Positions 2,187 through 27,562 of a stretch of DNA of 64,000 nt are shown here, piece after piece (position 1 is the first letter of the stretch; every line of letters begins with the position of its first letter). The stretch spans positions 1 to 64,000 of the forward strand of contig VGTG01000009.1 in the NCBI GenBank assembly GCA_016874795.1. The letters are read 5' to 3'. Made by a program: the position numbers and the translations under genes. A model generated the notes under the pieces. It ran no database searches. It worked only from the letters and a program-made list of their open reading frames with translations, and was not told where the DNA came from. Source of the stretch: Deltaproteobacteria bacterium. GTDB lineage: Bacteria > Desulfobacterota > Binatia > UBA12015.

Positions 2187-2202
2187 CGGCACCCCGTTTG
2201 CA
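2187..2202 (+). promoter_or_regulatory. Sigma-54 promoter for fliK-flgD-flgE
   Basis: CGGCACCCCGTTTGCA fits the sigma-54 consensus TGGCACG-N4-TTGCW, with GG at 2188-2189 and GC at 2200-2201 separated by exactly 10 bases. The predicted transcription start is near 2213, six bases before the fliK ATG at 2219. Longer upstream readings of fliK (for example from the TTG at 2198) would lie inside the promoter and are rejected. Confidence 0.72.
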
Positions 2203-2218
2203 ATGTGCTCCCACGCCC

Positions 2219-3775
2219 ATGCGTGTACGAGCGATTGCCGCCGCGCCGGTGGCCGGCGCGCCCGCGGTGCGGGAGCCGGCCGGGGAAGGCGAAGCCGGCG
2301 AGGCCCCTCCGGGAACGACGTTCCTCGAGCTCGTCGCGTTCCTGGACCTCTTGCGCCGGCCGTCTGCCGAGGAAGGCGCGCAGGGGAGCATCGCCACGCT
2401 CGACGGAGCGATCGCGAACGTTGCGACACCGGAGTCCGCCGCGACGGTCGTGCCTTCACCCGACATCGCGGTAGCCGCCGACCAGAGCGCAACGGGCGCC
2501 GCCGGCCGCAGTCCAGCGGGAGCCGCGGGGCAGGTTCCGACCGGAGCCGCGGGACAGAGCCCGACGGCAATCGCGGGACAAAGCCCGGCGGCAACCGCGG
2601 GACAAAGCCCGGCGGCAACCGTGGGACAAAGCCCGGCGAGAGCTGGCGCGACCTCCGCGCCGTCGGACGGCGCCGAGCCGCCGATCGCCGGATCGGCTCC
2701 GGTCGTGCCGACGAACGTCGACGAGCCGGCGACGCGCACGACCGCTCACGCGGCGCGCGCGGCGGCGGGCTCGGCGACCTCTCGCGCACCCGCCTCGCCC
2801 GTCCCGTCCGCAAACGAGAGCGCTGCGCCGGCGGCGACGCGCTCGGAAACTCCGCCGATCGACGACGACGCGGCGACATCTTCCAAGGAAAAACGTGCAT
2901 CAGGGCACGCTGCATCGGATGCGGTGCCGGACACGCCGGCCGAGAGCACGTCTCTTCCGGAGAAAGCGCGCGTCGCCGACGTGCCCGGGAGCGACGGAGG
3001 GGCTGCCCGCTCGGATGCTTCACCGACGGAGGAGCACACCGCGACCGTCGGGAACGTCGCGAGCAGCGACGCCACCGGATCCGAGCGCGACGACGCTCCC
3101 GAGAAGGCGTCGCCCACCGGGGAGCGGACTCCCTCCGCGAGCGCCGCGAGCGCCGGCCGTACGCCCGCTTCACCGGCGAGCGCGACGGATGCGGCGACGA
3201 CGCGCGGCGACGCGTCCTTCGACACACGGCTCGAAGTGTCGGCCCGCACCGAAGCGCTCGAGCCGTCCGATCGCCACGTCCGCTCGAACGAGACGAACCG
3301 CTACGAGGCCGCTTCGCAGCGCACGAGCACGTGGCGCGCCGCCGCGACCCCGAGCGGCACGGCCGAGCTGCCGAGCTGGATCGAGCGCGTCTCGGCGACG
3401 AGGCACGCGCTCGAGCGCGGCAGCAGCGTCATCCACTTCGAGCTTGAGCCGCGCGATCTCGGTCGCATCGAGGTTCGCCTGAGCTTCGGGCGCGAGGGAC
3501 TGCACGCGCGGATCCACGCCGAGCACGAGGACGCGCGCACGCTGATCGCGAACCAGCAGCCCGCGCTCGCGGCCTCGCTCGAGCGCAACGAGGTCCGTCT
3601 CGCGAGCTTTCTCGTCGACCTCGGCCTGTCGAGCGACGACCGGCAGAGATCCCGACATCCACTGGAAGACGAATTCCTCCTCGGCTCGTCGCTTCTCGCC
3701 GGTGAGGCGGAAAGCGCGGACGAGCCCGAGCTCCACGTCGCACCGCTCGCCCGACTTCTCAGCGTGAGGGCCTGA
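2219..3775 (+). CDS. fliK: Flagellar hook-length control protein FliK
   Basis: A 518-residue molecular ruler secreted through the export gate; it switches FlhB from hook to filament substrates. The first 380 or so residues are low-complexity Ala/Pro/Ser/Thr/Gly sequence, including six 8-residue repeats (GQSPAATA type). The C-terminal domain at about 385-490 carries the conserved Flg_hook signature (FELEPRDLGRIEVRLSF, then LIANQQPALAASLERNEVRL). The ATG at 2219 is chosen because the sigma-54 promoter ends 17 bases upstream. There is no clear ribosome-binding site, consistent with a very short leader. FlgD and FlgE, the hook cap and hook subunits whose assembly it measures, follow in the same operon. 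Confidence 0.93.
   Translation: MRVRAIAAAPVAGAPAVREPAGEGEAGEAPPGTTFLELVAFLDLLRRPSAEEGAQGSIATLDGAIANVATPESAATVVPSPDIAVAADQSATGAAGRSPAGAAGQVPTGAAGQSPTAIAGQSPAATAGQSPAATVGQSPARAGATSAPSDGAEPPIAGSAPVVPTNVDEPATRTTAHAARAAAGSATSRAPASPVPSANESAAPAATRSETPPIDDDAATSSKEKRASGHAASDAVPDTPAESTSLPEKARVADVPGSDGGAARSDASPTEEHTATVGNVASSDATGSERDDAPEKASPTGERTPSASAASAGRTPASPASATDAATTRGDASFDTRLEVSARTEALEPSDRHVRSNETNRYEAASQRTSTWRAAATPSGTAELPSWIERVSATRHALERGSSVIHFELEPRDLGRIEVRLSFGREGLHARIHAEHEDARTLIANQQPALAASLERNEVRLASFLVDLGLSSDDRQRSRHPLEDEFLLGSSLLAGEAESADEPELHVAPLARLLSVRA
2504..2647 (+). repeat. Six tandem 24-bp repeats inside fliK
   Basis: In-frame 24-bp units encode the octapeptides GRSPAGAA, GQVPTGAA, GQSPTAIA, GQSPAATA, GQSPAATV and GQSPARAG. 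The fourth and fifth units are nearly identical at the DNA level, which suggests recent duplication. They lie in the disordered ruler part of FliK, so changes in copy number would alter ruler length without breaking the frame. Confidence 0.9.
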
Positions 3776-3780
3776 GTCCG

Positions 3781-4485
3781 ATGATCTCCCCTGCTCTCGC
3801 CGCCTCGGCGGCTTCGACGGCTCTCGACGTCGTCTCTTCGCTGACGAGCGATTCGGCCGCCGATCGCAACGACGTGATCGGCCAGCAGGAGTTCCTGACC
3901 CTGCTCGTCACGCAGCTGCAGAACCAGGATCCGCTGAACCCGCTCGACAGCGCCGACTTCTCCGCCCAGCTCGCGCAGTTCTCGAGCCTCGAGCAGCTCA
4001 TGCAGATCAATCAGCGGCTCGAGAACCTGGGGGAGGACGGCTCGAGCGGCCCGATCGATCCCGTCGCTCTCCTCGGTCGCGAGGTGACCGCCGTCGGCTC
4101 GTCGGTCGCGGTCGAGTCGGGCGTGGCCTCCGGGCTCGCCTATACGCTCGAGACGGCGGGACAGGTTTCGATCGAGATCAGCGACGCGGAAGGAAACGTC
4201 GTCAAGAGCGCGGTGCTCGGCTCGCAGAGCGCCGGCGAGCAGCGGCTCGATCTCGCGCGAGTTCCCGCGATCGGCGCGCTGGCCGACGGCGTCTACTCCG
4301 TCCGGCTGACCGTGCAAGGCGCCGACGGCGGCACGAAGGAGATCGCGACGCGCGTCGAGGGCCTCGTCACGGGTGTCGATCTCGACGGCACCTCACCCGT
4401 GCTGCGGATCGGCCCGCTCGAGATCCCTCTCACCGACGTTCGCGAGGTGCGCCGTCCCACCGCCGGCGATTCGAACGACGCATAG
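3781..4485 (+). CDS. flgD: Flagellar hook-capping protein FlgD
   Basis: A 234-residue scaffold that caps the growing hook and lets FlgE subunits polymerise. The N-terminal region contains the FlgD signature around QQEFLTLLVTQLQNQDPLNPLDSADFSAQLAQFSSLEQL (residues about 37-75), needed for export and capping. The rest is the Ig/tudor-like part, with the recognisable LLGREVTAVGSSV segment near residue 95 and beta-rich sequence ending in LEIPLTDVREVR. It starts three bases after the fliK stop and precedes an unknown gene and flgE, the usual fliK-flgD-flgE order with one insertion. Confidence 0.95.
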   Translation: MISPALAASAASTALDVVSSLTSDSAADRNDVIGQQEFLTLLVTQLQNQDPLNPLDSADFSAQLAQFSSLEQLMQINQRLENLGEDGSSGPIDPVALLGREVTAVGSSVAVESGVASGLAYTLETAGQVSIEISDAEGNVVKSAVLGSQSAGEQRLDLARVPAIGALADGVYSVRLTVQGADGGTKEIATRVEGLVTGVDLDGTSPVLRIGPLEIPLTDVREVRRPTAGDSNDA

Positions 4486-4504
4486 AAACGGAAAAGGAAC
4501 GATC

Positions 4505-5224
4505 ATGGCCATCTCGGGAGACTTGTCGATCTCGCGCCGCAGCCTCTTCGCGGCTCGGGAGGCACGCGACGATCGCGATGCTCGCGTCACCGTCGGTCGC
4601 ACGATCGAGCGCGACCGCGAGGGGCAGGCGCAGGAGCGCTCGGAGTTCTCCGGGCTCGTCACGCCGAGAACCGGCGAGGAGTCGTCGGCCGCAGGACGTC
4701 CTTCGGGCTCGTCGGGCAACGCCTCGTCCGACGTCGAAGAGGGCTGGTACGTGCGCCTGCAGGAAGCGATGGCGGCACCTCCTGCTCCCGAGCCTTCGCC
4801 GGATCGTCCGCCTCCCGCGAAGGAGTGGTCGCCCGCCTACGATCCGCGCGGCGGCCCGATCTGGGACGAGGAGCGCGGCAACTGGGTCCAGCTCTTCTAC
4901 GACGTCAACTGGGGCTCGCAGGACGAAGGCTACGGCCCCGGAATGCGCGTCTACACGCTCAATCAATACGGCGGCACGGGGCACACGCCGCCGGTTCGCC
5001 CCGACTACGTCGACGACCACGAGCCTGCGGGTCCGCCCGACGGCCCCTCGGTGCAGGAGCAGAGGTTCCAGGCGCTCGCCGAAGGCAACGCGTGGACGGA
5101 GGGCAGCATCGAGCTGTCGCATTCCGACCTCGAGAGGTGGGCGTCGAATCCGTACGTCCAGGCGAAATACGAACGCTGGCTCGCCGAATCGGGTGAGTCT
5201 GACGGTAACGGCTCGGCAGTCTAG
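4505..5224 (+). CDS. Unknown protein with hook/HAP-like N-terminal sequence
   Basis: A 239-residue protein between flgD and flgE that I do not recognise. The ATG at 4505 follows a GGAAAAGGAA ribosome-binding site. The first 20 residues (MAISGDLSISRRSLFAARE) closely resemble the starts of FlgE (MAILGALSIARSGLIATGE) and FlgK (MAILDLLSIGRSSLLAHQR), and the similarity to flgE extends to the DNA and the sequence just before the ATG. The remainder is unrelated to axial proteins: charged and Pro-rich to about 110, then a Trp/Tyr-rich segment (PIWDEERGNWVQLFYDVNWG) and an acidic end. FlgE and FlgK N-termini carry export signals, so export through the flagellar gate is a reasonable inference. Its function is unknown; it could be a hook-associated accessory or assembly protein. 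Confidence 0.75.
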   Translation: MAISGDLSISRRSLFAAREARDDRDARVTVGRTIERDREGQAQERSEFSGLVTPRTGEESSAAGRPSGSSGNASSDVEEGWYVRLQEAMAAPPAPEPSPDRPPPAKEWSPAYDPRGGPIWDEERGNWVQLFYDVNWGSQDEGYGPGMRVYTLNQYGGTGHTPPVRPDYVDDHEPAGPPDGPSVQEQRFQALAEGNAWTEGSIELSHSDLERWASNPYVQAKYERWLAESGESDGNGSAV

Positions 5225-5244
5225 GAACGGGAAGGAATACAGCC

Positions 5245-6519
5245 ATGGCCATTCTGGGAGCATTGTCCATCGCCCGTAGCGGTCTCATCGCCACCGGCGA
5301 AGCGCTCGGCGTGACGAGCAACAACATCGCGAACGTCAACACCATCGCGTTCAAGGGAAGTCGCTCGGAGTTCGCCGACCTGTTCGCCGGCGGCGTCGGC
5401 GGCGAGGTCGGGCTGGGCACGCGCCTCTCGGGCGTGAGCCCGAGCTTCACGCAGGGGAGCATCGAGGCGACCGGGCGCGCGACCGACATCGCGATCGAAG
5501 GAAACGGCTTCTTCGTCGTCCGGGGCCTCGACGGCCTCTTCTACACGCGTCAGGGGAACTTCAGCCTCAGCCTCGACGAGGTGCTGCAGACGCAGCAGGG
5601 ACAACAGCTCCAGGGCTTCGCCGTGGACGCCGCAGGCAACGCGATCGGCCCCCTCGTCGACATCGATTTCGGCGGCGCGGCGGGGGCGCCGTCTCCGACG
5701 ACGCGGATCGACTTCAAGAACAACCTCGATGCGGGCTCGCCGCTTCTCGGTGCGTTCGACGGCACCGATTACGAGTCCGCCTACGCGACGTCGAACGTGA
5801 CGACCTCGGTTCAGGTCCACGATTCGCTCGGTGAGGCGCACGAGCTGACGCTCTTCTTCACGCGCACGGGACCCAACGCCTGGTCGCTCGCCGTCGGCGT
5901 CGACGACGGCGAGCTCGGCGGCACTCCGGGCGACCTGAACATCATCGGCACGCAAGCGATCACCTTCAATACGGACGGCTCGCTCAGCGATCCGGTGCCC
6001 ACCGACCTCGCTGCGGTGACGTTCAGCGGCGCCGCGGCGCAGACGATCCAGCTCAACTTCGGCACGCCGAACACGACGCCGACACCCGGCGAGGGCCTCG
6101 ACGGGCTCACGCAGTTCGGCAGCGCTTCGAACGTCGCCGGCGTCTCGAACGGCTATGGCGCGGGCCAGCTCGCAGGGATCGAGCTCTCGGACGAAGGCCT
6201 CCTGACCGCGATCTTCGAGAACGGCCAGAGCCGTGCCCTCTTCCGGCTCGCGCTCGCGGACTTTGCCGCGCCGGAGGAGCTCTCGAGCCTGGGATCCGGG
6301 CTGTATCGAGAGACGTCCGCCTCGGGCGCGGCCGCGATCTCGACGGCGGGCACCGACGGGCTCGGCCGCATCGTCGGCCAAGCGGTCGAGCGCTCGAACG
6401 TCGATCTCGCGCAGGAGTTCGTCGACCTGATCTCGCTCCAGAGGAGCTTTCAGGCGAACGCGCGAGTGATCACGACGAGCGACGGCTTGCTCAACGACTT
6501 GATCAACATCGTCCGCTGA
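5245..6519 (+). CDS. flgE: Flagellar hook protein FlgE
   Basis: A 424-residue hook subunit exported by the flagellar gate and polymerised under the FlgD cap. The N-terminal D0/D1 segment contains the axial signature ALGVTSNNIANVNTIAFKGSRSEFADLF; the rod-hook motif ATDIAIEGNGFFVV occurs near residue 82. The middle is a beta-rich D2 domain, and the C-terminus has the matching SNVDLAQEFVDLISLQRSFQANARVITTSDGLL coiled-coil region. The start is the ATG at 5245, after GGGAAGGAA. The length is close to that of other hook proteins. It ends the fliK operon; the next gene, fliL, has its own promoter 130 bases downstream. Confidence 0.97.
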   Translation: MAILGALSIARSGLIATGEALGVTSNNIANVNTIAFKGSRSEFADLFAGGVGGEVGLGTRLSGVSPSFTQGSIEATGRATDIAIEGNGFFVVRGLDGLFYTRQGNFSLSLDEVLQTQQGQQLQGFAVDAAGNAIGPLVDIDFGGAAGAPSPTTRIDFKNNLDAGSPLLGAFDGTDYESAYATSNVTTSVQVHDSLGEAHELTLFFTRTGPNAWSLAVGVDDGELGGTPGDLNIIGTQAITFNTDGSLSDPVPTDLAAVTFSGAAAQTIQLNFGTPNTTPTPGEGLDGLTQFGSASNVAGVSNGYGAGQLAGIELSDEGLLTAIFENGQSRALFRLALADFAAPEELSSLGSGLYRETSASGAAAISTAGTDGLGRIVGQAVERSNVDLAQEFVDLISLQRSFQANARVITTSDGLLNDLINIVR

Positions 6520-6724: not shown

Positions 6725-7267
6725 ATGGCGACTGCAGCGGAAAGCGTTGACGGGGTCGAGGTTGCTGCGCCGGAGAGCAAGAAGAGCAAGAAGTCCCTGC
6801 TGCTGCTCCTCCTCCTGCTGCTTCTCCTCGTCGTCGTCGGGGCCGGCGCCGCAGCTTGGTTTCTTGGCTTGATCCCACACGGACAGGCCGGAGAAGCGGC
6901 TCCCGAGCATGCGGCTCCGGAAGCGGCTGCCGCCTCGGACCACGGTGCCAAACCGACGCACGGCCCCGACGTCGGCCCGATGCGCGCCCTCGAGCCGTTC
7001 GTCGCGAACCTCGCCGACCGGGAAAGCCGCTACCTGAAAATCACGCTCCAGGTCGAGTTCGCGGCCTCCGAGCCTCCGGCGTTCGATGCGCGGATGCCGC
7101 AAGTCCGCGACGTGATCCTGACGCTCATCACCAGCAAGACATTCGCGGACATCCGCACGCCCGAGGGCAAGGAGCGGATGCGCGAGGAGGTCATCGACCG
7201 CATCAATCACGTCGTGGGCCAGTCCACGGTCAAGTCGATCTACTTCACCGACTTCATCGTCCAGTAG
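6725..7267 (+). CDS. fliL: Flagellar basal body-associated protein FliL
   Basis: A 180-residue single-pass inner-membrane protein that surrounds stators and modulates torque. It has a short cytoplasmic tail with a lysine cluster, an unusually Leu-rich membrane helix at about 25-50 (eleven consecutive leucines), an Ala/Pro/His linker, and the periplasmic FliL domain from about 78 (MRALEPFVANLADRESRYLKITLQVEF) to the conserved end VIDRINHVVGQSTVKSIYFTDFIVQ. The start at 6725 follows GGGGGAGCCAGG. It is the first gene after a sigma-54 promoter and lies directly before fliM, as in most flagellar operons. Confidence 0.95.
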   Translation: MATAAESVDGVEVAAPESKKSKKSLLLLLLLLLLLVVVGAGAAAWFLGLIPHGQAGEAAPEHAAPEAAAASDHGAKPTHGPDVGPMRALEPFVANLADRESRYLKITLQVEFAASEPPAFDARMPQVRDVILTLITSKTFADIRTPEGKERMREEVIDRINHVVGQSTVKSIYFTDFIVQ

Positions 7268-23279: not shown

Positions 23280-24653
23280 ATGGCGATCCTCGACCTTCTC
23301 AGCATCGGACGGTCGTCGCTGCTCGCTCACCAGCGCGCCTTGACGACGACGGGAAACAACGTCGCCAACGTCAACACCCCCGGCTTCAGCCGGCAGCGGA
23401 CCGTGCTCGACTCGGTCGCCGCGGGCAACGGCTCCGGCGTACGCGTCGCCGGGGTCGAGCAGATCGTCGACGAGCTCCTCGAGGGGCGCGCGCTCCTGCA
23501 GGCAACCTCGCTCGGCGAGGCCGAAGCGCGCCGCGAGCTCCTCGACGTCGCGGAAGGAAACCTTCCCATCGGCACGGCCTCGATCGGCAGCGCTCTTTCG
23601 GAGCTCTTCGCGGCCGCGAGCGCGCTCTCGACCCATCCCGCCGAGATCGGCGTGCGAAGCGACTTCCTCGCCCGCGCCGAGACGGTCGCGGCGCGAATCC
23701 GCAGCGCCGCCGGCGGCATCGCGAGCCTGCAGCGCGAAGCGGACGAACGCGCGGCCGGCGCCGTCCCCGAGGTGAATCGGCTGCTCGACCGCGTCGCCGC
23801 GCTCAACGCGACGATCGCGCGCGCGCAGGCTCTCGGAGAGAACGCGAACGAGCTGCGCGATCAGCGTCGCGGAGCACTCGACGAGCTCGCCCGGGTGATC
23901 GGAGTCCGCACCGTCGCGCGCGAGGACGGCAGCGTCGACGTCCTCGCTCGTTCCGGAATCGCGCTCGTGACCGGGACGAACGCGGCGCGACTCGAGGCGC
24001 GGCCGGGAAGCGCGACCGGCGTCGACGGGCGATCGCTGCACGAGATCGGGATGGTCGCACCGGACGGAAGCTTGATCCCGCTCGGCGACGATCCGGGAGG
24101 CGAGCTCGGCGCGCACCTCGCACTTCGCGACGGCACGCTCGCGACGCTCTCCGCGGATCTCGACCTCCTCGCAACGACGCTTCGCGACGAGGTGAACGCG
24201 GTACAGACCGACCCGGCGGGGCGGGATCTCGACGGCGTCGTCGGCACCGCTCTCTTCGCGGGCACCGGCGCACTGGATCTCGAAGTCGCGCTGACGGATC
24301 CGCGCGGCATCGCCGCGGCCCAGAGCAGCAGCACCGGCGACAATGCGAACGCACTCGCTCTCGTTGCGCTTCAGAAGACCTCCGTCGCTGCGCTCGACGG
24401 TGCGACCTTCAATGACTACTTCGGGAGCCTTCAGGCCCGCATCGGCGGCCTGGCTCGCGAGGCGGAAGAGCAGGTGACCGTCGAGCGAACGCTCGCGGAC
24501 GCGGTCGCAGCGCAGCGCGAGAACGTCTCGGGCGTGAGCCTCGAGGAGGAGTTCACCGACCTGATCCGCTTCGAGCGCGGCTTCCAGGCGGCGGCACAGC
24601 TGATCGCGGTTGCCGATCGCCTCCTCGACGAGCTCCTCGTCCTTCGCCGCTGA
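23280..24653 (+). CDS. flgK: Hook-filament junction protein FlgK
   Basis: A 457-residue first hook-associated protein, started by ATG after a strong GGAGGAACG ribosome-binding site. The N-terminus MAILDLLSIGRSSLLAHQRALTTTGNNVANVNTPGFSRQRTVL is canonical, followed by a long coiled-coil region typical of HAP1 and a C-terminal end VSLEEEFTDLIRFERGFQAAAQLIAVADRLLDELL. It is shorter than enteric FlgK (547) because the surface-exposed D2/D3 domains are reduced. It overlaps flgL by one base (TGATG). Confidence 0.96.
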   Translation: MAILDLLSIGRSSLLAHQRALTTTGNNVANVNTPGFSRQRTVLDSVAAGNGSGVRVAGVEQIVDELLEGRALLQATSLGEAEARRELLDVAEGNLPIGTASIGSALSELFAAASALSTHPAEIGVRSDFLARAETVAARIRSAAGGIASLQREADERAAGAVPEVNRLLDRVAALNATIARAQALGENANELRDQRRGALDELARVIGVRTVAREDGSVDVLARSGIALVTGTNAARLEARPGSATGVDGRSLHEIGMVAPDGSLIPLGDDPGGELGAHLALRDGTLATLSADLDLLATTLRDEVNAVQTDPAGRDLDGVVGTALFAGTGALDLEVALTDPRGIAAAQSSSTGDNANALALVALQKTSVAALDGATFNDYFGSLQARIGGLAREAEEQVTVERTLADAVAAQRENVSGVSLEEEFTDLIRFERGFQAAAQLIAVADRLLDELLVLRR

Positions 24654-26761: not shown

Positions 26762-27562
26762 GTGAAGAGAGGCTCACGCGAGCAACTCTCCTTCGATGAC
26801 TTCCGCCGTCGCACGGGCCGAGGCGGACCGAGGTCCGGAGCAGGAAGACCGGCGGGTGCGCGTCCACGTGTGCGCCATCGCCCCAGGGCCGACTTCTCGG
26901 GAACGTGCCCCGCGCACGTGACGATTCGGCTGCGGCGCGGCCTACCGAGCCTCCGCTCTCGCAAGCTCGTGCGCGAGTTCCGGCGGAGCCTCGCAGTCGC
27001 CTGTGAGCGGAGCGAGTTTCGCGTTCTCCACTTCTCCCTCCAGCGGGATCATGCGCACTTCCTCGTCGAAGCGGACGGCACCGAGTCCCTCGCACGCGGC
27101 ATGAAATCGATCGCGGCGAGGCTCGCGCGCGCCGTGAATCGCGTGTTCGAGCGAGTCGGCAAAGTCCTCGACGGCCGGTATCACCTGCACCTCCTCCGGA
27201 CGCCGCGGGAGGTCCGCCACGCTCTCGCCTACGTGCTTCTCAATGCGCGCCGTCACTGGGCGAAGCGATTCGGCACGGCTCCGCCGGTGCGGATCGACGA
27301 AGCGTCTTCAGGCCGCTGGTTCCGTGGCTGGTCGAGGGACGTTCCTGGAGCCGACGTGCGCGGCAGTCCCGATGTCGCGTCCGCGCGCACGTGGCTCGCC
27401 CGCTCGGGCTGGCGACTCCACGGCCTCATCGACCCGGGTGGCGTACCCGGTCCAGGCGAGGGCCGAGCCCGATCCTGGCTCGGTCGCGATCGTGCCGAGC
27501 TTGGCAATCGTACTATAGGACGCAGGGCTCGTGGTCCGATCGAGGGGTCAAGAACGCCTTGA
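26762..27562 (+). CDS. REP-associated tyrosine (Y1/HUH) transposase-like protein
   Basis: A 266-residue member of the Y1 single-strand transposase group. The metal-binding HUH pair is H97-A-H99 (QRDHAHFLVEA) and the candidate nucleophile is Y157 (HALAYVLLNARRH), in the usual RAYT order. The N-terminus is very basic, as is common for RAYTs. RAYTs are single-copy genes that act on short palindromic REP sequences rather than moving themselves; no IS ends flank this one. A long hairpin at 43992-44072 is a possible REP-like substrate, but nothing directly links them. The last 60 or so residues are low complexity and may be degraded. Confidence 0.78.
   Translation: MKRGSREQLSFDDFRRRTGRGGPRSGAGRPAGARPRVRHRPRADFSGTCPAHVTIRLRRGLPSLRSRKLVREFRRSLAVACERSEFRVLHFSLQRDHAHFLVEADGTESLARGMKSIAARLARAVNRVFERVGKVLDGRYHLHLLRTPREVRHALAYVLLNARRHWAKRFGTAPPVRIDEASSGRWFRGWSRDVPGADVRGSPDVASARTWLARSGWRLHGLIDPGGVPGPGEGRARSWLGRDRAELGNRTIGRRARGPIEGSRTP

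Follow-up and report, generated by a model that had tools for sequence, protein, structure and literature searches.

An orphan gene between flgD and flgE encodes a protein with a FlgE-like N-terminus and a putative flagellar export signal

Results

The window, that is, the whole stretch of 64,000 nucleotides analyzed here, carries a long flagellar operon in the order fliK (2198-3775), flgD (3781-4485), an orphan gene that we call X (4505-5224), flgE (5245-6519), and fliL (6725-7267); the names of fliK and fliL come from inspection of the sequence and from the matches that these genes have at the corresponding position in relatives. flgD, X, and flgE are all on the forward strand; the first encodes the hook cap (Pfam FlgD, 2e-21) and the last encodes the hook protein (Pfam and NCBIfam). 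X starts 19 nt past the flgD stop codon, behind a purine-rich leader, and flgE starts 20 nt past the stop codon of X. The sequence-only reading had rightly placed a gene between flgD and flgE and had quoted the N-termini of X, FlgE, and FlgK correctly, but the span that it gave for this one gene, 4505 to 6519, takes in both X and flgE. At the three codon positions of the X frame, the GC content is 0.69/0.55/0.83, much as in flgD, flgE, and fliL, and this coding pattern runs throughout X but is absent from the rival ORFs that overlap it (4430-5263 on the other strand and 4578-5279 in another frame). By these sequence criteria, X is a real and intact gene of 239 codons. Just downstream of the flagellar genes, at 26762-27562, lies an ORF whose product by eye resembles REP-associated/IS200-like transposases.

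The X protein is acidic (pI 4.5) and strongly hydrophilic (GRAVY of -0.97 from its composition). Residues 71 to 239 (4715-5221) consist of a Pro-rich linker followed by a Trp/Tyr-rich acidic body, for which no match was found in Pfam, NCBIfam, PHROGs, PDB, or elsewhere in the genome. The complete protein had no Pfam match at an E value of ≤1, and the curated NCBIfam and Pfam models returned only a spurious autotransporter match (E = 0.21). FlgE of the window matches the Pfam families Flg_bb_rod, D1, FlgE_D2, and Flg_bbr_C, and X matches none of them. The possibility that the body is a diverged FlgE, FlgD, or FliK was considered and dropped, as it shows no sequence likeness to any of these. An AlphaFold prediction from the single sequence was uninformative, with a pLDDT of 39.5.

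The N-terminus is the part of X that resembles another protein. Residues 1 to 20 (MAISGDLSISRRSLFAAREA; 4505-4564) are identical to those of FlgE (MAILGALSIARSGLIATGEA) at 12 of 20 positions. None of 200,000 permutations of X residues 2 to 20 reached more than 10 of 19 identities with FlgE, while X itself has 11, which bears out the initial impression of a start very like that of FlgE. We also surveyed 1373 ORFs of at least 60 amino acids from flagellar loci (the ORF of X entered from an upstream GTG and hence was not counted): ten had 13 to 19 identities with FlgE residues 2 to 20, as FlgE homologues would give, none had 9 to 12, and apart from the FlgE-like ORFs none exceeded 8 of 19. FlgK (start at 23280) comes close to FlgE in its likeness to X over this stretch of 20 residues, and the donor therefore cannot be named from the stretch alone. 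A tblastn search with X against all six frames of the window gave a single match besides X itself, and this was FlgE; the match covers X residues 1 to 70, aligns start codon with start codon, and contains one 5-residue gap (E = 0.047). A hidden Markov model built from 13 FlgE sequences of relatives placed X residues 1 to 62 collinear with FlgE 1 to 57 in the same alignment, with a score that 3 of 2000 full shuffles equalled. It is likely from these comparisons that the N-termini of X and FlgE are homologous.

The alignment falls into three zones. After the first 20 residues comes a charged spacer at 21 to 44 (4565-4636), which stands in place of the NNIANVNT segment of FlgE and shares only 2 of 19 aligned residues with it. 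At residues 45 to 52 (4637-4660) the likeness resumes, with RSEFSGLV in X facing RSEFADLF at FlgE 40 to 47, nearly in register and identical at 5 of 8 positions; within this block, X and flgE have 12 of 12 nucleotides in a row in common (CGCTCGGAGTTC). The sequence-only reading had let the similarity end at about 20 residues, which does not hold. The score of X 21 to 70 against FlgE 21 to 70 was equalled by 1 of 1000 shuffles, and identity in the two blocks (16/27) exceeds that in the spacer (2/19) with a Fisher P value of 0.0017, an optimistic value since the zones were picked after alignment. A match to the FxxxPhi pattern within residues 30 to 56 is common (48% of control ORFs; about 9% by chance from the composition of X), and the case for the second block therefore rests on its register with FlgE and the 5/8 identity. 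We regard this block as likely but not certain. The RSEFxxL block is not present in FlgK, and the NNIAN segment of FlgE is absent from X. No FlgE signal was found after X residue 70 in protein or DNA, where flgE scored no better than flgG or flgL. An alignment of the X DNA after nt 60 with flgE was likewise dropped: none of 500 codon shuffles reached the observed value, but z-scores against eleven other genes were similar.

The nucleotide sequences around the start codons are less alike than had been proposed. At the residues shared by X and FlgE, synonymous codons agree at 5 of 11 positions, against 5.9 expected from codon usage. The stretch from the flgD stop codon through the X leader (TAGAAACGGAAAAGGAACGATC; 4483-4504) resembles the flgE leader (TAGGAACGGGAAGGAATACAGCC) only modestly beyond chance. 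As much likeness (TAGRAACGGRAARG) was seen for about 3 in a set of 99 other RBS-like leaders, and the leaders TAGAAACGGAAAAGGA and TAGGAACGGGAAGGAA are closer than the flgE leaders of relatives, with about 3% of unrelated RBS-like leaders scoring as high. The sole DNA-level hint of common descent is the TTG that X and flgE both use as codon 7. TTG is rare, making up 4% of Leu codons, and it is also found there in flgE of two relatives of the same family.

Searches of 58 relatives, 148 genomes of the class, 395 genomes of the phylum, GTDB genome contigs, viral contigs, phages, and plasmids turned up no homologue of X; weak matches in distant genomes (E of 0.002 to 0.01) were taken as chance. 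The sequence-only reading had suggested looking for homologues in the same slot, and there were none: the gap between flgD and flgE is 13 to 71 bp in all 21 genomes of the class with both genes scorable, including 29 bp in the only genome of the same genus with the junction intact, and is 759 bp only in the present genome. In the same-genus genome G001 (locus L015, about 600 to 2200), flgE and its junction with flgD are interrupted by frame changes, by a stop codon, and by an apparent deletion; the flagellum seems to be disappearing from this relative or to be gone already. In Firmicutes and one Armatimonadetes record, the slot holds a protein of 125 to 149 amino acids that is unrelated to X. 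The nine slot proteins compared (L031, L036, L045, L046, L054, L057, L070, L077, and L098) have a conserved domain common to all, and all nine carry F-x-x-x-L at residues 32 to 58, upstream of this domain (background of the motif, 48%); these proteins may be early flagellar export substrates as well.

Discussion

The gate recognition motif (GRM) of early flagellar export substrates has the form F-x-x-x-hydrophobic and docks on FlhB, while the NNIAN segment of the FlgE D0 domain serves axial assembly. GRM-like motifs occur in FlgD (FLTLL, 38 to 42), FliK (FLELV), FlgE (FADLF, 43 to 47), and X (FSGLV, 48 to 52). A requirement for small hydrophobic residues close to the N-terminus is common to all early substrates, and the signals of FlgD comprise hydrophobic residues 2 to 5 and the GRM 36-FLTLL-40, which is identical to the motif in FlgD of our window; FlgD export was low when the two signals were 19 residues apart and optimal near 24 (PMC8983047). 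X has small hydrophobic residues at its extreme N-terminus (MAISGDLSISRRSLFAA), similar to FlgE, and FSGLV follows this segment after at least 30 residues, above the minimum of about 19 (PMC8983047), although the motif taken by itself is weak evidence. X therefore appears to have retained the two N-terminal signals known for early substrates of flagellar export, and the proposal that a new protein had gained a flagellar export signal fits with the parts of FlgE that were retained, since they fall on experimentally defined early-substrate signals. FlgE also has a C-terminal signal, described as facilitating targeting (PMC10936197); no counterpart was recognizable in X, whose C-terminus (SIELSHSDL versus AVERSNVDL) was no more similar to that of FlgE than shuffled sequences were.

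We favor the view, with a probability of somewhat under 60%, that X is an early-class export substrate specific to this lineage, that its signal derives from FlgE, most likely by an old duplication of the 5' end of flgE, and that it acts as a non-axial accessory. The most likely route would be the joining of such a duplicate to unrelated sequence. X is probably secreted: the hydrophobic segment within residues 2 to 17 would open the export gate, the FxxxPhi block at 48 to 52 would dock on FlhB, and the protein would leave the cell alongside FliK, FlgD, and FlgE during hook building. The part of FlgE that was lost is the NNIAN segment, which suggests a protein that is exported but does not polymerize, and X, which has neither the NNIAN/D0 segment of FlgE nor its C-terminal D0 region, should for this reason not polymerize into an axial structure. 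It may work in solution as an accessory, either at the hook as it grows or outside the cell, with logistics like those of FlgD or FliK.

With respect to the origin of X, the proposed 5' duplication of flgE is plausible as an old event. The two genes are adjacent, and two genomes from one family of the class carry a tandem pair of flgE-like genes that are complete and have diverged (L120, 202-2796; L121, 88-2796; flgE-strand coordinates), so a route for duplication exists in this class. A recent duplication is not supported because the synonymous codons show no more agreement than chance would give, as expected of saturated sites. The same codons leave some room for the strongest of the competing explanations, which we consider unlikely, namely, that X is exported but owes its FlgE-like start to convergence or to another early or hook-family gene such as flgK. 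The near-equal similarity of FlgK and the need of all early substrates for small hydrophobic residues (PMC8983047) agree with this. However, the position-by-position identity goes beyond a requirement for hydrophobicity and is unmatched among the surveyed ORFs that are not FlgE-like, and flgK as the donor is opposed by the second block, which fits FlgE and is missing in FlgK.

Still less probable is that X is a cytoplasmic protein, e.g., a regulator, with a FlgE-like tip that competes at the export gate or simply gives translation an efficient start. The most conserved region does take in the translation start, and the protein is acidic and hydrophilic, but the likeness to FlgE resumes at residues 45 to 52, farther in than translation initiation requires and where the FlhB-docking motif lies. 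The least probable explanation is that X is what remains, after decay or rearrangement, of a complete tandem copy of flgE. Its FlgE-like beginning and the tandem copies in the class could suggest this, but no FlgE signal was found past residue 70, and the frame of 239 codons is intact and shows the GC pattern of coding sequence over its whole length.

X resembles FlgE, the adjacent gene product and putative source of its signal, in residues 1 to 20 and in the GRM block but lacks the NNIAN/D0 segment, the D1 and D2 domains, and the C-terminal Flg_bbr_C domain and is not a hook protein. With FlgD and FliK, which are early, non-axial export substrates, it has in common the operon stretch, N-terminal hydrophobic residues, and an FxxLPhi motif near residues 38 to 48, but their bodies have no sequence similarity to that of X. 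The Firmicutes slot protein, presumably of the TIGR02530 type, occupies the same slot and carries F-x-x-x-L in all nine examples but is about half the size of X, without sequence similarity to it, and has a conserved domain that X lacks.

A more specific history is also plausible, at slightly less than even odds: a gene born within a flagellar operon, which took from FlgE no more than its gate-opening segment and its FlhB-docking motif, acquired a different spacer between them, lost the motif for assembly, and was joined to an orphan domain to give a species-specific cargo secreted through the flagellum during hook assembly. If true, X would be a natural experiment that shows what is enough for early flagellar type III export. 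The retention of two mapped signals with the intervening part discarded would support the dual-signal model outside Salmonella, and the gene would illustrate how new cargoes for flagellar secretion come into being.
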